Of a stretch of 64,000 nt of DNA, positions 52,480 to 64,000 are shown in pieces. Below the pieces are notes generated by a model. It saw only the letters and a program-made list of their open reading frames with translations. It ran no database searches and was not told the origin of the DNA. Position 1 is the first letter of the stretch, and every line of letters begins with the position of its first letter. The position numbers and the translations under genes were made by a program. The stretch comes from Ilumatobacteraceae bacterium (lineage in GTDB: Bacteria; Actinomycetota; Acidimicrobiia; Acidimicrobiales; Ilumatobacteraceae). The stretch spans positions 1-64,000 of the forward strand of contig JAJTFJ010000005.1 of the NCBI GenBank assembly GCA_021298435.1, given 5' to 3'.

Positions 52480-53337
52480 CTACGCGCTTGCTTCCAATGC
52501 AAACGCAATGACTTCAGGAATCTCGCTGGGACCCCCGACAAGAGCCAAACGCGCGCCCACTCTGTTTGCAAACGCACGTGCTTCATCGTGATCATCACGT
52601 GGAGCAATCACAATCAGTTCTTCCATGCCATGTGCCGCCATCTCAGCATCGCCTTCGACCGTTGCTCGACAATCAGACAAAAGAATCGTGATACGACGAC
52701 CCGCACGTGATCGTGACAACTGTTGGCGTGCAGCCAACAATGCACCGGCGAGGTCGGTTGTACCGTGCCCCCGCAATGTGAGCACATCATTAATCACACG
52801 CTCACTCGACTTCGGTACATCCTGACTCTTTGTCACGACGACATCTTTGCCAAATGCAATCACGCTGTAGTCCTCAGGATTGCGACTTGCAATTGATGCA
52901 GTTGCCACGGCATTCGTCGCCAATGGCTGACCACCCATAGAGCCACTGCGATCTAACAACAAGCAGAAAGCAGTGCCCGGTTTGCGCCAACCGCGCACAC
53001 GTAAACGATCTGGGTCGATGGCATGCCCGCGACGGGATTCACTGATTGCTTCAAGACTCGCATCAATGTCGATGTCACCAGCCTCTGGGCTGTATGCCTG
53101 TTCCACCATCTTGCCGATGCCACGTGGTCGAGCGCGTCCGCGTGCGCCAAGATCCAACATCAATCTGCCAGCGAGACGCTTTGCTAACTCTCGCAATTTC
53201 GGGTCCGTTGCACCCGTGAGGTCTGCGAGTAATCCCAGCATTTCATCGGGACTGTTCTGCATTGCTTCATCAACTGCGTACTCATCGAGTTCTCCTACTT
53301 CAGGAGAAATTTGTTCGAAGTTGTCATTGCGTGACAA
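52480..53337 (-). CDS. VWA domain protein (MIDAS motif, MoxR partner)
   Basis: FCLLLDRSGSMGGQPLATNAVATASIA, GHGTTDLAGALLAA, ILLSDCRAT. Confidence 0.85.
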   Translation of the reverse strand: MSRNDNFEQISPEVGELDEYAVDEAMQNSPDEMLGLLADLTGATDPKLRELAKRLAGRLMLDLGARGRARPRGIGKMVEQAYSPEAGDIDIDASLEAISESRRGHAIDPDRLRVRGWRKPGTAFCLLLDRSGSMGGQPLATNAVATASIASRNPEDYSVIAFGKDVVVTKSQDVPKSSERVINDVLTLRGHGTTDLAGALLAARQQLSRSRAGRRITILLSDCRATVEGDAEMAAHGMEELIVIAPRDDHDEARAFANRVGARLALVGGPSEIPEVIAFALEASA

Positions 53338-53405
53338 GTCTCGACGAGACGTTGTTCGCTTGCCTGCATCCGCAACGGCTTGGTCGGCGGCTTCGCCTTC
53401 CTTTG

Positions 53406-54243
53406 TTAGAGGGAGGTCGTGCCCCGGTTCGTCGGGGCTCCAGCTTTTCCCTCGCCAGGGTCTCCTTCAACACGCCCAAAAACGTCTTGCCAAATCTCTG
53501 TGACGATTTCTTCAGACGTACGTACGCCACCTTCACGCACACGCACGCGTCCTGACAATGCAACCAATGCGGCATCGACGCCCACACTTGGTTGATCAAC
53601 AGTTGATTCGCGCAATTCAGCCAATGAAACTGCCACTTTTGCAAAGTCAACGGCGCCACGAACAGATGAGCCCACGCGCAAGTCAGGATGCTGACGAGTA
53701 CGACGAACAACTTCTACCGACACGACACACGCGGTCGTACACCGCGCCAGAGATTCGTGCTGTACCCACTGCATCAAAAGGGTTCATCGCAGCAACCAAG
53801 CGGAAGCCAGGCGAAGCAGCAATACGACCCAAACGTGGAACATTCAATTCAGCTTCACTCATCACAGTGATGAGAACGTTAAGTGTTTCTTCGGGAATGC
53901 GATTGATCTCTTCGACATACAACAAAGAACCATCGCGCATCGCAGAGACCAACGGGCCATCAACAAACACCGATGGGTCATAGCCCTCGTTGAGAACACG
54001 TGCGGGGTCGAAGTGACCCACCAAACGGGCAGGAGTTAACTCGGCATTGCCTTCGACAAATTCGAATCCGATACCTAAGCCTTGAGCAACGGCTCGCAAC
54101 AACGTTGACTTGCCAGTTCCCGGAGGACCTTCTAACAACACGTGACGATCTGCAGCCAGCGCCGCAAGAACTAATTCGAGTTCACGCGTGCGCCCCACCA
54201 CATGTGATGAGAGCGTGTTGCGCAGAGATGCAGCGCTAGTCAT
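53406..54243 (-). pseudogene. MoxR-type AAA+ ATPase, apparently disrupted by internal deletion plus frameshift
   Basis: Frame A (54243-53683): LLEGPPGTGKSTLLRAVAQ...VAAMNPFDAVGTARISGAVYDRVCRV then GRSCSSYSSAS*; frame B (53777-53406) continues VSVEVVRRTRQHPDLRVGSSVRGAVDFAKVAVSL, the family C-terminal motif. Confidence 0.75.
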
Positions 54244-55387
54244 TGACAATGACGCCGCGAATGTTTTCGCCGTCACGCATTGCCTGGTAACCCTCATTGA
54301 TCTGATCAAGCGTGTACCGCTTTGTAATCAGTTCATCAAGCTTGAGGTCACCAACGCGATACATGTCGAGAAGTTTTGGAATGTCTGCACGTGGGTTCAA
54401 GCTGCCAAAGATGGTTCCCTTGACTTCTTTGTTCCACATTGCCAACTGGAAGAGGTTGATATCGGCGCTTGTCTCATGCATTGGCGAGATTGCAGTGACA
54501 ACACATGTGCCACCCTTGCCAACCATTGCCATGCCCTCGCCCATCATGTTGCCGTGCAACACGCCGGGGGTCATGATGACGCGATCCGCCATTTCACCCC
54601 ATGTCAATTCATTGATGTGAGGAATTGCTTCGGCCATCGATGAGAACGTATGCGTTGCACCGAACTCCATTGCCTTCTCGCGCTTGAACTCCACAGGGTC
54701 AATTGCGATGATGCGCTTTGCGCCAGCCATGCGAGCACCTTGCACGGCGTTAATGCCTATGCCACCGATGCCAACAACGACAACAGTGTCACCAGGTTGC
54801 GTGTCGGCGCGGTTCGTGGCTGAGCCCCAACCCGTTGCAACACCACACGACACCAATGCAACTGCATCGAGTGGAAGATCTTTCTCCACCTTGATGAGTG
54901 ATGCTTCTGCCACCGTTGCGTATTCAGAGAATGTGCCCAACTTGGCCATCAGCTTCACGGGGCGACCATCTTTGACATGGTGACGGTGAGTGCCGTCCGT
55001 GATCATGCCGCCTGTGAGGGTTCCTGCGCCCAAATTGCAGAGGTTTTGACGCCCTGTGGAGCAATAACGGCACCGCCCACAAGATGGGACGAAGCTGGCT
55101 GACACATGGTCGCCGGGCTGCAATGTCGTGACGCCGGGGCCACACTTCACCACAACGCCAGCACCTTCGTGACCGCCGATGAACGGGAAGAAATCATCCA
55201 CGCCCATCATGGCGAGGAGTTCCTTCGGAGGAACCATGTCACCCGTGACGAAGTGCTCGTCTGAGTGGCACATGCCGGAGACTTTCCAGTTGACGAGAAC
55301 TTCATTCGCCTTTGGTTCGTCGACTTCAATCTCTTCGACGACCCATGGCTGATCCATTCCGTACAAAACAGCAGCACGTGATTTCAT
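54236..55387 (-). CDS. Zn-dependent alcohol dehydrogenase, NDMA-dependent (mycofactocin-associated) type
   Basis: SGMCHSDEHFVTGD, PFIGGHEGAGVV, PSCGRCRYCSTGRQNLCNLGA, VVVVGIGGIGINAVQGARMAGAKRIIAIDPVEFKREKAMEFGATH. Confidence 0.9.
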   Translation of the reverse strand: MKSRAAVLYGMDQPWVVEEIEVDEPKANEVLVNWKVSGMCHSDEHFVTGDMVPPKELLAMMGVDDFFPFIGGHEGAGVVVKCGPGVTTLQPGDHVSASFVPSCGRCRYCSTGRQNLCNLGAGTLTGGMITDGTHRHHVKDGRPVKLMAKLGTFSEYATVAEASLIKVEKDLPLDAVALVSCGVATGWGSATNRADTQPGDTVVVVGIGGIGINAVQGARMAGAKRIIAIDPVEFKREKAMEFGATHTFSSMAEAIPHINELTWGEMADRVIMTPGVLHGNMMGEGMAMVGKGGTCVVTAISPMHETSADINLFQLAMWNKEVKGTIFGSLNPRADIPKLLDMYRVGDLKLDELITKRYTLDQINEGYQAMRDGENIRGVIVND

Positions 55388-55419: not shown

Positions 55420-56535
55420 TTATTCGTAAACGAGAACGCCGCGGATGTTCTTGCCATCGCGCATGTCTTGGTATCCCTGGTTGATGTCATCGAGCGTGTA
55501 GGTGTTTGTCACCAAGCCGTCGAGATCAAGTTGTCCTTCGCGGTACATGCCAAGAAGTTTTGGAATATCGGCACGTGGGTTACCCGAACCGAACAATGAA
55601 CCAACAACTTGCTTCTCCATCAATGTGAGGTCAAGAAGGCTCATGTTTGCTCCACCCATTTCAAAAGCAGGGTGAATGTTGGTGACAACAACGCGACCAC
55701 GCTTTGCAGCAAGTGCCATTGCTTCACCCATGAGCTGGCCATCGCCCACACCCATTGTCAAGATGACCTTGTTTGCCATGGTTCCCCATGTGAGCTCTTG
55801 CAAGAACGGCAATGCTTCGGCCATTGAGCTCACTGTGTGAGTTGCACCGAATTCCATTGCCTTTTCGCGCTTGAACTCGACCGGGTCGATAGCGACGATG
55901 CGCTTTGCACCAGCGAGCTTTGCGCCCTGAATTGCGTTCGCACCGATACCGCCAACGCCGACAACAACGACAGTGTCACCAGGAGCAACATCTGCTGCAT
56001 ACACAGCCGAACCCCAACCGGTGACAACACCGCAACCGAGCAAGCATGCCTTGTCGAGAGGAACATCTTTTTCGATCTTGATGCACGATGCTTCGTTCAC
56101 CACTGTGTGATGAGCGAAGGTTCCGAGCATGCACATGAGCGTGAGGTCTTTGCCTTGTGCGTGGTGACGTGAGGTGCCGTCAGAAATCTGAAGACCAAGT
56201 CCCATGAGTGCACCGAGGTCGCACAAGTTCTGATGGCCGGTGGAGCAGCTTGGGCAACGGCCACATGATGGGATGAAGCCGAACACCACGTGATCGCCAG
56301 GGGCAATCCAGCTGACGCCTTCGCCGACCTGCTCAACAACGCCGGCACCTTCGTGGCCGCCCACGATGGGCAGAGCGAATGGAAGGTCGCCTGTTGTGAG
56401 GTGCTCATCTGAGTGGCACATGCCTGATGCGGCAATCTTGACCAGAACTTCGCCTGGACCAGGAGCATCAAGCTCGATCTCTTCGACGCTCCATGGAGCA
56501 TTAACTTCCCAGAGCACTGCTGCCTTCGTCTTCAT
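55420..56535 (-). CDS. Zn-dependent alcohol dehydrogenase, NDMA-dependent (mycofactocin-associated) type, paralogue
   Basis: SGMCHSDEHLTTGDLPFALPIVGGHEGAGVV, PSCGRCPSCSTGHQNLCDLGA, same VVVVGVGGIGANAIQGAKLAGAKRIVAIDPVEFKREKAMEFGATH block. Confidence 0.9.
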   Translation of the reverse strand: MKTKAAVLWEVNAPWSVEEIELDAPGPGEVLVKIAASGMCHSDEHLTTGDLPFALPIVGGHEGAGVVEQVGEGVSWIAPGDHVVFGFIPSCGRCPSCSTGHQNLCDLGALMGLGLQISDGTSRHHAQGKDLTLMCMLGTFAHHTVVNEASCIKIEKDVPLDKACLLGCGVVTGWGSAVYAADVAPGDTVVVVGVGGIGANAIQGAKLAGAKRIVAIDPVEFKREKAMEFGATHTVSSMAEALPFLQELTWGTMANKVILTMGVGDGQLMGEAMALAAKRGRVVVTNIHPAFEMGGANMSLLDLTLMEKQVVGSLFGSGNPRADIPKLLGMYREGQLDLDGLVTNTYTLDDINQGYQDMRDGKNIRGVLVYE

Positions 56536-56646: not shown

Positions 56647-56766
56647 ATGGAACAAGACACCCCACAGACCCAAGTCACCGAGCAGGTCGAAGCCACCGAA
56701 GCAGTCGTCACTGAAGAGCTCCTCGTTGAGGAAATCTCCATTGATGGCATGTGCGGTGTCTACTGA
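56647..56766 (+). CDS. mftA: Mycofactocin precursor peptide MftA (39 aa)
   Basis: Translated by hand: MEQDTPQTQVTEQVEATEAVVTEELLVEEISIDGMCGVY*; diagnostic C-terminus IDGMCGVY; directly upstream of mftB/mftC; missing from the supplied ORF track, whose listed ORFs are all 60 aa or longer. Confidence 0.97.
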   Translation: MEQDTPQTQVTEQVEATEAVVTEELLVEEISIDGMCGVY

Positions 56767-56780
56767 GCCCTCAGGCTCAG
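56763..56780 (+). promoter_or_regulatory. Hairpin spanning the mftA stop codon (mftA-mftB intercistronic)
   Basis: CTGAGCC-CTCA-GGCTCAG: perfect 7-bp stem, 4-nt loop. Confidence 0.65.
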
Positions 56781-56785
56781 CCGTT

Positions 56786-57052
56786 ATGACCCTCACGCTC
56801 GAGTCGGCGTGCGAGATGCACCCGCAGGTCGCCCTGCGACCCGAGCCCTTCGGGGCGCTCGCCTATCACTATGGCAACCGACGCCTCGTCTTTCTTCGCC
56901 ATCCCGACATTGTTCGGGTGGTACGCAATGTCTCCACGTATCCCTCACTTCGCGATGCACTCGCCGGTGAAGGAGTCGAGGAGCAGCGCTGGCCTTCCTT
57001 CGTGAAGGCACTTTCCACTCTCACCACATCGGAGATCATTCGTGTCCGCTGA
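56786..57052 (+). CDS. mftB: Mycofactocin peptide chaperone MftB
   Basis: VALRPEPFGALAYHYGNRRLVFLRHPDIVRVV; between mftA and mftC; start at internal ATG 56786. Confidence 0.95.
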   Translation: MTLTLESACEMHPQVALRPEPFGALAYHYGNRRLVFLRHPDIVRVVRNVSTYPSLRDALAGEGVEEQRWPSFVKALSTLTTSEIIRVR

Positions 57053-58157
57053 AAGCCTCGTTACCCAGATGAAGTCAGGGCTCGATGCCCCTATTTGTCT
57101 CACATGGGAACTCACCTACGCCTGCAACCTTGCATGTGTCCACTGCCTCTCAAGTTCTGGTCAGCGCGACGAGCGTGAGTTGTCAACAGAGCAGGCAAAA
57201 GCTGTTCTTGATGAACTGCGTGACTTGCAGGTGTTCTACATCAACATCGGTGGCGGCGAGCCAATGGTGCGTCGTGACTTCTTTGAAATTCTCGAACACT
57301 CCATCTCCAATGGCATCGGAGTGAAGTTCTCCACCAACGGTGCATTCATCGACAAGAAAAATGCAGAGCGTCTTGCCACGATGGACTACCTCGACATTCA
57401 AATCAGTCTCGATGGAACCACCGCAGAGGTCAACGATGCAGTGCGCGGCGAAGGCTCATACGCCACAGCAATTACTGCAATGGAAAATCTTCGCGATGCA
57501 GGCTTTGGTCAATTCAAAATCTCTGTTGTTGTGACACGTCACAACGTTGATCAACTCGATGAGTTCAAAGCACTCGCAGATTCGTTTGGTGCACAACTTC
57601 GAATTACGCGTCTTCGTCCTGCCGGCCGCGGCGCCGACACATGGAATGAATTGCACCCCACCAACGCACAACAGCGTCAGATTTACGACTGGCTGTTGGC
57701 GCATGGAGAAAACGTTCTTACTGGTGACTCCTTCTTCCACCTAAATGCATTTGGTGAATCACTCCCCGGCCTCAACATGTGTGGAGCAGGTCGCGTGGTG
57801 TGTCTCATCGATCCATTAGGTGATGTGTATGCATGCCCGTTCGTGATTCATGAAGACTTCAAAGCAGGAAATGTTTTAGACGATGGCGGATTCACCAAGG
57901 TGTGGCGCGGATCTGATTTGTTCCTCGAACTTCGTGAACCACAAAGTGCCGGTGCATGTGCATCGTGCGGTGCCTTTGATGCATGTCAAGGCGGATGCAT
58001 GGCTGCCAAGTTCTTCACAGGCATTCCACTCGATGGCCCCGACCCAGAATGTGTCGGCGGAGACGGAGAGAAGTTGCTGGGGGCTGTTCCCGTTGCACTT
58101 CTTCCACGTCCTTCTATGGACCACTCAAAGCCAGCCCGCATCAAGGTCAACTCATGA
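57042..58157 (+). CDS. mftC: Mycofactocin radical SAM maturase MftC
   Basis: CNLACVHC radical SAM motif, INIGGGEPMVRRDFFEI, C-terminal SPASM-like cysteines (CGAGRVVCLIDPLGDVYACPF; CASCGAFDACQGGCMAAK). Confidence 0.96.
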   Translation: MSAESLVTQMKSGLDAPICLTWELTYACNLACVHCLSSSGQRDERELSTEQAKAVLDELRDLQVFYINIGGGEPMVRRDFFEILEHSISNGIGVKFSTNGAFIDKKNAERLATMDYLDIQISLDGTTAEVNDAVRGEGSYATAITAMENLRDAGFGQFKISVVVTRHNVDQLDEFKALADSFGAQLRITRLRPAGRGADTWNELHPTNAQQRQIYDWLLAHGENVLTGDSFFHLNAFGESLPGLNMCGAGRVVCLIDPLGDVYACPFVIHEDFKAGNVLDDGGFTKVWRGSDLFLELREPQSAGACASCGAFDACQGGCMAAKFFTGIPLDGPDPECVGGDGEKLLGAVPVALLPRPSMDHSKPARIKVNS

Positions 58158-58741
58158 GTCCAGTCGTTGTTGTTCTTGCAGCAATTGCGTCGTACTTCGT
58201 CGGCACCATTCCCAGCGCCATTGTTGTTGCTCGCACCAAAGGCGTCGACATCACAACATTCGGCTCAGGCAACCCCGGTGCAAGCAACGTTGCACGTGCT
58301 TTGGGCTGGAAATACGGCTCCATTGTTTTCGCAATTGATGCCGCAAAGGGAGCCATTCCTGCTGCCATCTTCTTAGGCGATCGCCCCATTGCTTACGTGT
58401 GCGGAGCTTTTGCAATTCTCGGACACCTCTTCCCCATCACTCGTAAATTCAAAGGCGGCAAGGGTGTTGCCACAGGCGCTGGCCTGTTGTTGCCATTGCA
58501 TCCACTCTTCATGATCATCTGTGCCATCACATGGATCTCACTGATGAAGCTCACGAAGAAGGCTTCCATCGCATCCATCGTCGTTGTGCCACTGCCCATC
58601 ATCATGATTGCGCTATCGAAGAAGCCGACATGGGAAGTATTCGCTTTTGTCGGGATCGCTCTTCTCATTGAAGTTCGACATGTTTCGAACATCAAGCGCC
58701 TTTTGTCAGGTAGCGAGAACACTCTCGACGTCAAGAAGTAG
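58154..58741 (+). CDS. plsY: Glycerol-3-phosphate acyltransferase PlsY
   Basis: YFVGTIPSAIVVAR, FGSGNPGASNVARALGWKYG, LGHLFPITRKFKGGKGVATGAG; ATGA overlap with mftC; the ORF-track start (57983) is too early. Confidence 0.9.
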   Translation: MSPVVVVLAAIASYFVGTIPSAIVVARTKGVDITTFGSGNPGASNVARALGWKYGSIVFAIDAAKGAIPAAIFLGDRPIAYVCGAFAILGHLFPITRKFKGGKGVATGAGLLLPLHPLFMIICAITWISLMKLTKKASIASIVVVPLPIIMIALSKKPTWEVFAFVGIALLIEVRHVSNIKRLLSGSENTLDVKK

Positions 58742-58744
58742 AGA

Positions 58745-59446
58745 TTGTTCTCAATGGGCTCTGCGACATCTGCAGAAATCGCCGAGTCGCGGCCAATTCT
58801 TCTTCTTCCCCTCGGTGCATGGGAACAACACGGCCCGCATCTGCCGCTTGATACCGACACCATGATCATCACTCGTGTGATCGCTGACGTCCTACGTCAC
58901 GAAGACCTCCGTACTGTCAATGTGATGTCGGCGCCAGCAATCTCCATCACTGCAAGCGATGAGCACCATGGTTTCCCTGGCACTCTCAGTACCGGCACAC
59001 AGGCATTAAAAGATTCTGTTGTTGCTATTTGCCGATCTGCATCGTGGGCAACGGGCGTGTGCATCGCGAATGGGCACGGCGGCAATGCAGATGCATTGGC
59101 AGCAATCACCTCTGCACTTGCATACGAAAGCATCACACACAGCGTGTGGTCTCTTCCTTCCTATAGCGGCGGCGACATGCACGCAGGCCACACCGAGACG
59201 TCTCTTTTGTTACACATCGCACCCAATGAAGTTCGCAGCAATGTGATTGCTCGCGGAGCAACCCATGATGCTGGTCTTATCGACGCCATGCGTGATGGTG
59301 GGGTGCAAGCAGTGTCTGAAAACGGAATCATTGGCGATGCAAGCACTGCAACTGCTTCTCACGGGAAAGCTGTCCTCGATTTGTACACCAACTCTCTTCG
59401 TGCACATGTACTTGACTGCCACCGTGAGTGGACAACAAAGAAATGA
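58745..59446 (+). CDS. mftE: Mycofactocin precursor peptidase MftE (creatininase family)
   Basis: ILLLPLGAWEQHGPHLPLDTDTMI, IANGHGGNADAL, GDMHAGHTETSLLL; TTG 58745 or ATG 58754 start. Confidence 0.93.
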   Translation: MFSMGSATSAEIAESRPILLLPLGAWEQHGPHLPLDTDTMIITRVIADVLRHEDLRTVNVMSAPAISITASDEHHGFPGTLSTGTQALKDSVVAICRSASWATGVCIANGHGGNADALAAITSALAYESITHSVWSLPSYSGGDMHAGHTETSLLLHIAPNEVRSNVIARGATHDAGLIDAMRDGGVQAVSENGIIGDASTATASHGKAVLDLYTNSLRAHVLDCHREWTTKK

Positions 59447-60822
59447 ACACATCAGGTCTCACAACTGATGATCAATGGTTTCGGTCCGAGAATGGATCAG
59501 GACTCCTTGCGGGATCACCACTGACTTATTTCTCAGTCACTGATGCTGGTCAAAAGATTCTTGATGCAATCGAAAACAACAAACCTCTTCCCGTTAATCA
59601 CGCAGCTCTGACACAACGACTCCTCGCCAAAGGGGCAGTTCACCCGGCGTATGACACACCTGGGAACGCTGCGGATCTCACAGTTGTTATCCCCTCATAT
59701 GTTTCCGAGACAACACACCTAGAACGCCTGCAAACATTGGTGGATTCGCTCGCCGGACTGCACCTCATTGTCGTTGATGACTGTTCACCAATTGGCATTG
59801 TTCTGAGTGGCGCCGAGGTTATTCGGCTACCGACAAACCAAGGTCCCGCAACTGCACGGAACGCTGGGCTCAATGCAGTCACCACTGCGTATGTCGCTTT
59901 CGTCGACGACGACACATCAGTAACTGCTCACCAACTTCTCGCTCTGACTTCTCACTTCACCGACATGAGTGTCGATGTTGTCGCACCACGGGTTGCGAGC
60001 ACATCTGGAGAGTCTCTTGTTGCCGAGTACGAAACCTTTCACTCTCCCTTAGATCTCGGTCTCCTTCCTTCCGTGGTGCGACCACTCTCACGTGTCTCGT
60101 ATGTTCCAGCTGCCGTGCTCGTCGCTCGCACCCACGCAGTGAAAGAGATGCATGCATTCGATACATCAATGCGACTCGGCGAAGACGTTGACCTCATTTG
60201 GCGAATAGTCGAAGAGGGCAGAACCGTCCGATACGACCCAACAGTGATTTGTCACCACGCGCCTCGCATGACAATACGTGCGTTACTGAAACAACGATTC
60301 GGCTACGGACGCAGCGCAGCATCACTTGATAGAAAACATCCGTTCACTGCAGCGCCACTGCGTGCCAACATCGTGATGCTGATTCCAGCCATTGCACTTC
60401 TTAGTGGATATGTCTTTGTCGCAGCCGCTCTCGTGCCTCTCATGCTTGTGTGGTTCTCGATCACGTTGCGTCAGACCAAAATCCCACTCACAACAAGAGC
60501 GAAACTGGCGATGACAGGATGGTTCTCCACGGTGCGACTCCTGACTTCTGCGATTATGCGAGTCTGGTGGCCGCCAGTACTTCTCATCGGCCAATTCTCA
60601 CTGCGAGTCGGAGCAGTCTTTGTCTTCAGTGCTTTCGTGCCTGCGATGTACGGACTCATGCGCAATAAACCGCGACATACCGTCGGGTATATCACTCTTC
60701 GTATTCTTGACCCCATGGCATATGGCGTCGGCGTGTGGGCTGGCGTGATTCGAGACCGCAACCTCAGATGTTTATTACCGGTAGTCACTCGTAGTTCAAT
60801 CCGACTACGGTCAAAGGTGTGA
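59443..60822 (+). CDS. mftF: Mycofactocin glycosyltransferase MftF (GT2)
   Basis: LLAGSPLTYFSVTDAGQKILDAI, LTVVIPSY, LIVVDDCSP, LPTNQGPATARNAGL, AFVDDDTSV, LGEDVDLIWRIVEEG; ATGA overlap with mftE. Confidence 0.93.
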   Translation: MNTSGLTTDDQWFRSENGSGLLAGSPLTYFSVTDAGQKILDAIENNKPLPVNHAALTQRLLAKGAVHPAYDTPGNAADLTVVIPSYVSETTHLERLQTLVDSLAGLHLIVVDDCSPIGIVLSGAEVIRLPTNQGPATARNAGLNAVTTAYVAFVDDDTSVTAHQLLALTSHFTDMSVDVVAPRVASTSGESLVAEYETFHSPLDLGLLPSVVRPLSRVSYVPAAVLVARTHAVKEMHAFDTSMRLGEDVDLIWRIVEEGRTVRYDPTVICHHAPRMTIRALLKQRFGYGRSAASLDRKHPFTAAPLRANIVMLIPAIALLSGYVFVAAALVPLMLVWFSITLRQTKIPLTTRAKLAMTGWFSTVRLLTSAIMRVWWPPVLLIGQFSLRVGAVFVFSAFVPAMYGLMRNKPRHTVGYITLRILDPMAYGVGVWAGVIRDRNLRCLLPVVTRSSIRLRSKV

Positions 60823-61775
60823 CGATTCGACTTGCAGTGAATGAGCCCCGGTGGCTCGCACATGTTCAAGGGGTTGCCAAGGCAATGCCAGGCCTCGTTC
60901 CGGTCGTCAAGGGCAACGGATACGGGTTTCGTCGTTGGAATCTCATGCCACTCGCAGGTCAACTCAGTAACGAAGTGGCCGTCGGAACCGTGTTCGAAGC
61001 TCGAGATATTCCGAGCAACGTGACTCCGATTGTTCTCACGCCCACACTCACCGCCCCACCAAATAACTTGCCACTAAATACGGTGATGACTATTAGTTCG
61101 CCTCATCATGTGATTGCACTGAACTCTGCTGGTTGGAGTGGTGAAGTCATTGTGAAGCTTCAGTCTTCAGCGATGCGCTACGGCGTTGAGAGGGCCATGT
61201 TGCAATCGTTGTTGTCAGACATTGAGAATGCGCGACTCACAGTTCGTGGTTATGCAATTCATCCACCGCTTGACGGCGACGCCGCGTTGCATCTCAAAGA
61301 TGTCACATCTTGGCTTGATGTTCTTGATGCTCGACTTCCGATTTATGTCAGCCATCTTGATAGTGCCGCATATGAGAAATTGCGGACGACTCATCCTGAT
61401 CGAGACTTTCGCATTCGTCTTGGAACTTCGCTATGGCATGGCGATAAGTCAATGATGCAGCTCTCTGCGGACATTGTTGATCATCATCCGATTGAAGCTG
61501 GCATGCGCGCTGGTTATCGCCAAGTCAAGGTTGACGGACCAGGAGAAATCGTTCTCGTCGGATGCGGAACAGCGCATGGTGTCACGCTTCTCCCAGATGG
61601 TCGCAGTCCGTTCCACTATCAACGCCAGCGTCTCAATGTGTTGGAACCACCACACATGCACACATCAATGTTGATTGTTTCTAGAGGACGCCCTATTCCC
61701 AGCATTGGTGAATGGATTGATGTTCAACAACCGATGACACGCGTGCAAGTTGATCTCTTGCAGTGGATTAAGTAA
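60819..61775 (+). CDS. Alanine-racemase-like PLP (fold type III) protein
   Basis: LVPVVKGNGYGF (PLP Lys motif), VIVKLQSSAMRYG, IRLGTSLWHGDK; GTG start overlapping the mftF stop by 4 nt. Confidence 0.8.
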   Translation: MTIRLAVNEPRWLAHVQGVAKAMPGLVPVVKGNGYGFRRWNLMPLAGQLSNEVAVGTVFEARDIPSNVTPIVLTPTLTAPPNNLPLNTVMTISSPHHVIALNSAGWSGEVIVKLQSSAMRYGVERAMLQSLLSDIENARLTVRGYAIHPPLDGDAALHLKDVTSWLDVLDARLPIYVSHLDSAAYEKLRTTHPDRDFRIRLGTSLWHGDKSMMQLSADIVDHHPIEAGMRAGYRQVKVDGPGEIVLVGCGTAHGVTLLPDGRSPFHYQRQRLNVLEPPHMHTSMLIVSRGRPIPSIGEWIDVQQPMTRVQVDLLQWIK

Positions 61776-61781
61776 CTACTT

Positions 61782-62675
61782 CTATACGTGAGAAGACACG
61801 GCGCGATTTAAGCCGCGCCAGCCGACAGCAGATGCGCCGACTAGTGGTCCCTCATCAGCCAGACGCGCTGGAACAATGCGAGCATTCTTAGAGAACTCAA
61901 GTCCGCACAACTCATCAAGAGTTTTCTGAGCAGAGTTGAAAAACGTTGCACCAAATCCAAGTGCGACACTTCCGCCAACACAGACAAGTTTGAGATCAAG
62001 AAGGTTGCAGACAGAAGCAACACCGCGTCCGACCATGCGACCTGTGCGCACCATTGTCTCGTAGGTGGGCTGAGATGGGGGTCGACCAGTAATTGCCTCG
62101 ATGGCGGGTCCCGAGGCCTCTGCTTCCAGGCAGCCACGGCCTCCGCAGGTACACCGGCGCCCATTGGGCTCCACAATCACATGGCCCACATGGCCTGCAT
62201 TGCCGCTTTCGCCGTCCAAAAGCTGCCCATTGAGCACGATTCCGCCGCCCACACCGGTGGAAACGACCATGGCCATGAAGTTGTCGACGCCCTTGGCTGC
62301 ACCCAACCAACCTTCGGCGAGGGCCAGGGCCTTGGCGTCACCATCTCCAAAGACAGGAAGGCCTGTACTGAATGCAAGCTGATCACGAAGAGGAAAATTC
62401 TTCCACTGCGGAATATTGAGTGGAGACACTGTTTCAACATTGCGAGTAATCGGACCGGCAGAACCCACCCCAACAACAGATGGAGTCGCGCCGTGATGAT
62501 CGCGCGCCCTCACAAGTTGTGACTGAACTGCCTTATCAAGATCATCAAACAGTTCTTCCGCAGTCGCTGTGTGATCAACAGGAACATTGAGACGATCGAC
62601 AAGTTCTCCGGCACGAGTCACCAAACCGACGGAGAACTTCGTTGCTCCGATGTCGATTGCGAGTGCCAAATCCAT
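61782..62675 (-). CDS. ROK family glucokinase-like sugar kinase
   Basis: ALAIDIGATKFSVGLV, VVSTGVGGGIVLNGQLLDGESGNAGHVGHVIVEPNGRRCTCGGRGCLEAEASG. Confidence 0.9.
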   Translation of the reverse strand: MDLALAIDIGATKFSVGLVTRAGELVDRLNVPVDHTATAEELFDDLDKAVQSQLVRARDHHGATPSVVGVGSAGPITRNVETVSPLNIPQWKNFPLRDQLAFSTGLPVFGDGDAKALALAEGWLGAAKGVDNFMAMVVSTGVGGGIVLNGQLLDGESGNAGHVGHVIVEPNGRRCTCGGRGCLEAEASGPAIEAITGRPPSQPTYETMVRTGRMVGRGVASVCNLLDLKLVCVGGSVALGFGATFFNSAQKTLDELCGLEFSKNARIVPARLADEGPLVGASAVGWRGLNRAVSSHV

Positions 62676-62775
62676 AAGTCGTCTATTCTCGCAAAAACAA
62701 TTAATTTCCAAACGAAAAACCGACAAACTTTTCTACGAAGTACCTAAGTCTTCGATTGTTTTCTACGATTACAGC

Positions 62776-63438
62776 GTGAAATCTTCATGGGACGACATTC
62801 TTCAGAATGAATTCATTAGTCCCTATTTTTTATCAATGACTCAGTTTCTTGATGAGGAGCGCTCCGAACATCACGTGTTTCCACCACAAGAAAAAGTCTT
62901 TGCCTCGCTCGACGCAACATCTTTGCGTGACACCAAAGTCGTCATTCTTGGACAAGACCCGTATCACGGTGACGGACAAGCTGATGGACTCGCCTTCTCA
63001 GTTTCAGAAGGAACACCGATTCCCCCATCACTGCGCAACATTTTGAAAGAACTACACGACGACATAGGTGCTGCAATTCCTTCTCATGGCAACCTCATCT
63101 CATGGGCACAACAAGGAGTGCTCTTGCTCAACACAACTCTCACTGTGAGGGAAGGAGAAGCCGGATCTCATTACGGACGCGGGTGGGAGACTTTGACTGA
63201 TGTCATCATCAGAAAAATCAATGAAAAGCCTGATTCTGTTGTCTTTCTCCTCTGGGGCGCACATGCGCGAAAGAAGAAATCCCTCATCACCCAGCCCCAT
63301 CACGTGGTGATTGAAGGGGTCCATCCCTCCCCCTTGTCTGCCTATCGAGGATTCTTTGGGAGCAAGCCGTTTTCACGGGTCAACACTGCATTAGAACAAG
63401 TAGGCCACCGCCCCATTGATTGGGCAATCCCCTCGTGA
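62776..63438 (+). CDS. ung: Uracil-DNA glycosylase, family 1
   Basis: VVILGQDPYHGDGQADGLAFSV, GVLLLNTTLTVREGEAGSHYGRGWE, VHPSPLSAYRGFFGSKPFSRVN; GTG start 62776. Confidence 0.94.
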   Translation: MKSSWDDILQNEFISPYFLSMTQFLDEERSEHHVFPPQEKVFASLDATSLRDTKVVILGQDPYHGDGQADGLAFSVSEGTPIPPSLRNILKELHDDIGAAIPSHGNLISWAQQGVLLLNTTLTVREGEAGSHYGRGWETLTDVIIRKINEKPDSVVFLLWGAHARKKKSLITQPHHVVIEGVHPSPLSAYRGFFGSKPFSRVNTALEQVGHRPIDWAIPS

Positions 63439-63487: not shown

Positions 63488-63517
63488 CATGGGTTGCTGT
63501 GGGACAATCAACCCATG
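63488..63517. promoter_or_regulatory. Inverted repeat CATGGGTTG-N12-CAACCCATG overlapping the tetR start codon
   Basis: Read directly; perfect 9-bp arms, 12-nt spacer. Confidence 0.55.
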
Positions 63518-64000
63518 GCAATAGCTAGTCGGCAATCGGAGAAGTCTCGACAGACAGATCTCAAGGTTGCACAGAGTGCAGCTAAAGCAGTGCGGACTGT
63601 TGGAGTCGACCAGATGGCACTCACGCGTGTTGCTGCCGATGCAGGATTCTCCAGTGGTGCCATCTACGCGCGATGCGATGATCGGTCTGAACTTGTTGTC
63701 CTTGCGTGGGAGAAAAGTTTTTGGCCAATGTTGTCAGAGATCTTGTCGCTTCTTATCGAATCTGTTCTCTCACGATCCACCGTGAATTCAGAACAGATCA
63801 GAGAATTGTTCGAGCGTGCAAGTGGTGAGGATGCAATTCCCGATCTGGGAAGTGCGATGGAAGTTATTGTGGCCTCTCGTCGCGATGAGGTCATCGCCGA
63901 AGTTGTTCAACGTGACATCAACGGGCTGATGGAAGACCACGGCGTGGGTCCCTCTACAGATGGAGCAGATCGACAAGCTGTTGTCGGAGCCATCTGCACA
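63515..64000 (+). CDS. TetR-family transcriptional regulator (partial, runs off window)
   Basis: Hand translation MAIASRQSEKSRQTDLKVAQSAAKAVRTVGVDQMALTRVAADAGFSSGAIYARCDDRSELVVLAWEKSF...: TetR HTH; open to the last base, hence absent from the ORF track. Confidence 0.8.
   Translation, partial: MAIASRQSEKSRQTDLKVAQSAAKAVRTVGVDQMALTRVAADAGFSSGAIYARCDDRSELVVLAWEKSFWPMLSEILSLLIESVLSRSTVNSEQIRELFERASGEDAIPDLGSAMEVIVASRRDEVIAEVVQRDINGLMEDHGVGPSTDGADRQAVVGAICT

Follow-up and report, generated by a model that had tools for sequence, protein, structure and literature searches.

The 64,000-nucleotide stretch analysed here (the window: contig JAJTFJ010000005.1, positions 1 to 64,000, of an Ilumatobacteraceae bacterium) carries a genuine mycofactocin (MFT) cluster with a layout specific to its lineage. 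The genes mftA, mftB, mftC, plsY, mftE, mftF and a racemase-like gene, referred to here as rac, follow one another on the plus strand. Very probably the mft genes among them belong to an ordinary mycofactocin system that is split over two places in the genome, while plsY and rac are residents of the locus that are not needed for mycofactocin. The original prediction for this stretch had included PlsY and a pyridoxal phosphate (PLP) enzyme in the pathway; this is not upheld, because both genes are retained side by side in two related genera that lack the mft genes. Gene identities, synteny and distribution were obtained in the present analysis, and the order of reactions follows established work on these families.

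The host is a freshwater actinobacterium, and its 1.53-Mb assembly (G000) consists of 56 contigs and is 76.5% complete. Identities of the window proteins were called from NCBIfam scores against curated cut-offs, together with Pfam. The genes of the cluster are:

56647..56766, plus strand: mftA, precursor peptide of 39 residues with core IDGMCGVY (TIGR03969 50.4 bits, cut-off 25; PF23709 48.5, cut-off 27)
56786..57052, plus strand: mftB, precursor-binding chaperone (TIGR03967 94.9 bits, cut-off 33; ATG at 56786 read from the sequence)
57042..58157, plus strand: mftC, radical SAM/SPASM maturase with CNLACVHC (TIGR03962 623.3 bits, cut-off 265)
58154..58741, plus strand: plsY, glycerol-3-phosphate acyltransferase (TIGR00023 145.9, cut-off 137.2; PF02660 156.1, cut-off 24.1)
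58745..59446, plus strand: mftE, creatininase-family peptidase (TIGR03964 215.8 bits, cut-off 172)
59443..60822, plus strand: mftF, GT2 glycosyltransferase (TIGR03965 314.9 bits, cut-off 280)
60819..61775, plus strand: rac, racemase-like PLP-fold protein (Pfam Ala_racemase_N PF01168 41.3 bits, cut-off 24.1)

The identities first proposed for the five mft genes and for plsY are all borne out by scores above the NCBIfam cut-offs, including the MftA and MftC models, and E-values between 1e-13 and 1e-187 place the six far from chance. The CxxxCxxC motif of MftC is present as CNLACVHC in the translation. A gap of 19 nucleotides separates the mftA stop (56764-56766) from the mftB start. The junctions that follow were reread from the sequence and agree with the earlier description: mftB and mftC overlap by 11 nucleotides, ATGA joins mftC to plsY and mftE to mftF, GTGA joins mftF to rac, and 3 nucleotides lie between plsY and mftE if the latter starts at TTG 58745 (ATG 58754 is an alternative start). 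The layout also departs from the mycobacterial order as proposed, with plsY between mftC and mftE, rac after mftF and mftD far away. The idea of one translationally coupled operon holds in part: the couplings are present in the window, but those of plsY/mftE and mftF/rac are not conserved among congeners. Most congeners have a dedA gene separating plsY from mftE, and in 28 of the 38 loci that hold both mftF and rac a DUF4395 gene on the opposite strand stands between these two, the window being among the 10 compact ones. Because these two genes interrupt the row in most congeners, a conserved seven-gene coupled operon was rejected as a general feature.

The comparison with relatives covered 199 genomes of the order Acidimicrobiales and 151 of the family Ilumatobacteraceae (f1), mostly draft assemblies, and absence calls depend on cut-offs and completeness. 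Genes at the loci were labelled with hidden Markov models derived from window sequences and those of relatives, and NCBIfam was applied to examples. Several public records of the lineage bear the titles Bifidobacterium breve or Ferrithrix thermotolerans and are evidently mislabelled.

MftC scores above the cut-off in 77 of the 199 order genomes. Among the loci of the order, plsY stands behind mftC only in f1, where all seven members sampled have it there (with other genes between in G135), and in the MFT-bearing families outside f1 neither plsY nor rac was found at the mft locus in this sample. Within f1, MftC is present in 124 of 151 genomes and missing from 27, and PlsY occurs in 147/151. 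Two genera, g138 and g143 (12 sampled genomes each, all among the 27), show no MftC in any of the 24, and no MftF, MftD or MftE above the cut-off was found in these genomes; PlsY is nevertheless kept in 24/24 and rac in 23/24, so that the presence of neither depends on the mft genes. All ten g138 and g143 loci that were read have plsY, dedA and rac on one strand with gaps of 20-80 nucleotides and without any mft gene, followed by a DUF418/HGSNAT-like membrane protein (g138) and by uracil-DNA glycosylase (UDG) where the contig reaches far enough. This is the pattern expected of residents and not of genes that serve mycofactocin only. A tree of rac proteins places g138 with the MFT-bearing g6 (support 88) and g143 apart; hence the MFT state changed at least twice, and the presence of MFT in the remaining genera suggests that the direction was loss.

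PlsY is moreover a single copy in G000, and among the genomes of its genus (g1) the 11 that have PlsY have exactly one each, always behind mftC. Many Acidimicrobiales genomes in which MftC does not reach the cut-off have PlsY too. As the sole PlsY of its genome it is probably a housekeeping enzyme, and a second, specialised copy is ruled out. Most likely plsY is therefore a resident housekeeping gene and not a dedicated mycofactocin gene, its product presumably doing the usual phospholipid job, and rac is most likely a resident gene as well, retained in the MFT-less relatives. The synteny comparison that had been suggested for this locus thus confirms a genuine cluster with its own layout, and it separates plsY and rac from the mft genes.

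Some observations weigh against this reading. Where a locus holds both genes, rac lies behind mftF on the same strand (38/38), and plsY is found at most 400 bp behind mftC in 47 of 57 f1 loci. The adjacency of plsY and rac to the mft genes outlasts what is expected of random neighbours, and they may be regulated in common or linked in some secondary way. It could also be that the losses in g138 and g143 were followed by new roles for the PlsY and rac proteins.

The second place of the system is the site of mftD. No MftD above the cut-off was found in the 76.5%-complete G000 (best 254.6 bits, cut-off 470.85), while 10 of 10 more complete g1 congeners encode an MftD that scores 660-706 bits and is not near mftC. 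Most of the window, compared up to 34 kb and from 48 kb on, is collinear with two congener contigs, G262:C13 at 46.1-116 kb and G285:C3 at 142.7-70.4 kb. Their mftD genes, at G262:C13:18637 and G285:C3:164280, are located 22-27 kb further out than the start of the G000 contig. The MftD of the congeners and the collinearity together indicate a contig-edge effect as the reason for the missing gene in G000, and a real absence in the lineage was rejected on these grounds. As mftD is outside the fetched mftC flanks in 36 of 36 MftD-bearing f1 loci, the split cluster is a family trait.

On the other side of mftA stand two divergent genes for NDMA-dependent alcohol dehydrogenases, a nicotinoprotein class tied to mycofactocin (PMC3023750); they had no part in the original account. 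These and the neighbours downstream of rac are:

54236..55387, minus strand: NDMA-dependent (mycofactocin-type) alcohol dehydrogenase 2 (TIGR03989 559 bits, cut-off 440)
55420..56535, minus strand: NDMA-dependent (mycofactocin-type) alcohol dehydrogenase 1, divergent from mftA (TIGR03989 563 bits, cut-off 440)
61782..62726, minus strand: ROK-family kinase of the resident neighbourhood (PF00480 188 bits, and synteny), present in g1 and not found in g6 loci
62728..63438, plus strand: UDG, a resident neighbour with an uncertain start codon (PF03167), downstream of rac also in MFT-less relatives

After the two dehydrogenases, on the minus strand (52480-54309), a VWA-domain protein and a MoxR-like AAA ATPase were recognised by eye from translations only. 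Frames like this pair are also seen beside the dehydrogenase in L068, and they may represent an insertion or a chaperone pair. A TetR-like regulator, likewise recognised by eye, begins downstream of UDG (63494-64000, plus strand), the truncated piece having no Pfam match.

In the ordinary system that we favour, MftB would present MftA to MftC, which would decarboxylate and cyclise the C-terminal Val-Tyr. MftE would then free AHDP, MftD (whose gene in congeners lies 22-27 kb past the contig end) would deaminate it, and MftF would add glucose units. The two alcohol dehydrogenases would take the mycofactocin product as electron acceptor. The resident order is proposed to be plsY-dedA-rac-DUF418/HGSNAT-like-UDG with mft blocks around and between, and plsY and rac would be transcribed together with the mft genes and, in a genome as compact as this one, translationally coupled to them. 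The cluster is presumably expressed and active.

That PlsY and the PLP enzyme are themselves mycofactocin enzymes, for instance through acylation of the sugar chain and a reaction at the AHDP free amine that would give a modified cofactor, seems very unlikely to us. Such a role would accord with the tight coupling in the window and with the lasting adjacency of rac to mftEF and of plsY to mftABC in f1; rac has also kept its PLP lysine motif, and the alpha-amino lactam of AHDP might in principle be bound by a PLP enzyme. However, 23-24 of the 24 genomes lacking mycofactocin genes have retained the two, the genome has no other PlsY, the PlsY family is present in many order members without MftC, and neither gene is at the locus in the MFT-bearing families outside f1. 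A different link is conceivable, in which plsY and rac are no pathway genes and their position in the transcript is selected, so that the making of membrane lipids or of the envelope is tied to the oxidation of alcohols. The conserved same-strand arrangement fits such co-regulation, as does the mycobacterial mft repressor MftR, which senses long-chain acyl-CoA (PMC8728441), metabolically near the PlsY substrate. We nevertheless consider it unlikely, as the opposite-strand DUF4395 gene parts mftF from rac in the 28 loci mentioned, OYE genes or other insertions part mftC from plsY in several genera, and no MftR was identified at the window locus, although mftR was not specifically sought.

Hardly credible, finally, is the idea that the lineage truly has no MftD and that its product is another one, bearing an amine, with rac possibly in the place of MftD. 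The low MftD score in G000 would agree with it, but the ten congeners have MftD and collinearity puts the gene past the contig end. Rac as a substitute for MftD was rejected, as it is found in MftD-bearing, MftD-less and MFT-less genomes alike. The split system with resident plsY and rac is the reading that we retain.

What rac does instead may be approached from its sequence and predicted structure. It matches only Pfam Ala_racemase_N, and the NCBIfam alanine racemase model gives 15.2 against a cut-off of 218. Its 18 relatives align well, with invariant K31 and Y35 and a conserved PLP-lysine motif, PVVKGNGYG. An AlphaFold model (pLDDT 93.6, pTM 0.87) finds its best solved Foldseek matches among alanine and serine racemases (best E 5.6e-18, TM about 0.7-0.78, ~15% identity). 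Residues were mapped through a profile alignment with an alanine racemase structure from the PDB, the pairwise MAFFT alignment with the genome's own Alr being poor. Like alanine racemase (fold type III), rac has the fold, the PLP-lysine motif, the substrate arginine and the Arg-x-Gly motif; where alanine racemase has Tyr265 (GYADG), however, each of the 18 aligned relatives carries S/T, within GxG[ST]AxG, and the second catalytic base is thus not found there. Rac is therefore likely to be a PLP enzyme other than a canonical racemase. Its retained neighbours, PlsY, the DedA-family protein and the HGSNAT/DUF418-like protein, suggest a membrane or envelope role. A full-scoring Ala_racemase_N homologue is encoded elsewhere in G000. 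The alanine racemase frame of the genome (L035:1426-2451, G000:C10) appears to be missing the segment around the catalytic tyrosine of GYADG, possibly through a deletion and possibly through an assembly error.

Many other f1 genera possess mftA, mftB, mftC, mftE and mftF without MftD, also where the genome is nearly complete (e.g. G103, 99%). Their clusters carry OYE/FadH-family flavoproteins directly behind mftC or plsY, and 6 of 6 tested are above the TIGR03996 or TIGR03997 cut-off. Among 100 mft loci of the order with sufficient downstream sequence, 61 have MftD only, 32 OYE only, 7 neither and none both; this tally was drawn up after the pattern was first spotted in f1, the other families being a partly independent check. 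The loci for which the exclusion was noted include L150, L153, L154, L158, L061, L066, L084, L089 and L101. L081 has MftD plus an opposite-strand OYE gene 7.9 kb upstream and was scored OYE-less because of the strand. The genomes of L058, L067, L078, L086, L159 and L168 have no MftD above the cut-off, and no OYE gene is found near mftC. On the MftC tree, the MftD state changed at least 25 times and the OYE state at least 20 times. Its well-supported branches give six independent pairs, with a mean of 5.5 concordant and 0 discordant (median p 0.031).

The MftD-less clusters further contain an electron transfer flavoprotein (ETF) alpha subunit, a FixC-like protein and an ETF beta subunit before mftE-mftF. 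The alpha subunit scores 357.7 bits with NF038209 (cut-off 240), the beta subunit 179.7 with TIGR04503 (just under the cut-off of 200), and the subfamily models for the FixC-like protein stay below cut-off. With the two OYE/FadH flavoproteins these three make up a module of five genes. The ETF set is absent from all 75 MftD-bearing loci examined. In families outside f1 the module exactly fills the interval from mftC to mftE (e.g. L061, L066), and in f1 module and resident genes are intermixed, as mftABC-OYE1-plsY-OYE2-dedA-etfA-fixC-etfB-(mftE)-mftF in L150, L153 and L167. This interleaving of plsY and dedA with the module would explain why plsY stands between mftC and mftE in the window, whose order mftABC-plsY-(dedA)-mftEF is what remains once the module is removed. 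Genus g136 has both types, MftD-less in L150/L153 and MftD-bearing in L149/L151/L152, and hence a switch within one genus. The latter three loci (genomes G199, G263 and G297) hold mftABC, plsY, dedA, mftF and rac, with MftD elsewhere; they have no mftE, and the genomes hold only a creatininase paralogue of 138-141 bits.

The mutual exclusion of MftD and the module suggests that the module replaces MftD. We give an even chance to the view that Acidimicrobiales have two interchangeable cluster types, one, to which the window's lineage belongs, with MftD making pre-mycofactocin and the other with OYE/FadH Fe-S flavoproteins (TIGR03996, TIGR03997), ETF and a FixC-like quinone reductase deaminating AHDP. 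The OYE-type flavoproteins would oxidatively deaminate AHDP much as trimethylamine or histamine dehydrogenase does its own substrate, with electrons passing via ETF to quinone. These two dehydrogenases share one Fe-S flavoprotein superfamily with the OYE proteins, and a search finds both, ranked below 2,4-dienoyl-CoA reductase. The substrate of trimethylamine dehydrogenase is an amine, which it oxidises, handing the electrons to ETF. The MftD step is itself the oxidative deamination of an amine (PMC11778925), and an OYE-ETF-FixC route for AHDP is therefore plausible. A competing view is that the module re-oxidises mycofactocinol, as MftG does, instead of replacing MftD, and about a quarter of MftC genomes indeed lack MftG (PMC11778925). 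The link of these OYE and ETF families to mycofactocin is already known from their NCBIfam names, and Saccharopolyspora clusters without mftD that carry TIGR03997 have been noted (PMC11162802). In the literature open to search, we found neither the mutual exclusion of MftD and the module nor any paper linking mycofactocin with Acidimicrobiia or with electron transfer flavoproteins.

Taken more broadly, the locus illustrates that operon content can mislead the inference of a pathway, and that the natural absence of a cofactor from two genera separates pathway genes from their neighbours without a wet experiment. The mutual exclusion of MftD and the OYE-ETF-FixC module would explain mycofactocin in MftD-less bacteria such as Saccharopolyspora erythraea, which makes methylated mycofactocin according to PMC11162802, citing Ellerhorst 2022.

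Compared with the mftR-A-B-C-D-E-F-G cluster of Mycobacterium, the window has mftA, mftB, mftC, mftE and mftF in the same relative order and NDMA-dependent alcohol dehydrogenases as clients (PMC3023750, PMC11778925), whereas mftD is distant, plsY and rac are placed among and after the mft genes, and the alcohol dehydrogenases are divergent neighbours. PlsY resembles its known family in both models (TIGR00023, PF02660) and in being the sole copy, and differs in lying directly behind mftC in most f1 genera, which is seen in no other sampled family of the order. The Saccharopolyspora clusters (BGCFlow, PMC11162802) share with the window an mftA with IDGMCGVY, mftB, mftC and the lack of mftD in the cluster. 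They differ in carrying a TIGR03997 OYE gene and no match to mftD, while in the lineage of the window mftD is located elsewhere and the locus has no OYE gene; the closer parallel to them is found in the MftD-less Acidimicrobiales.

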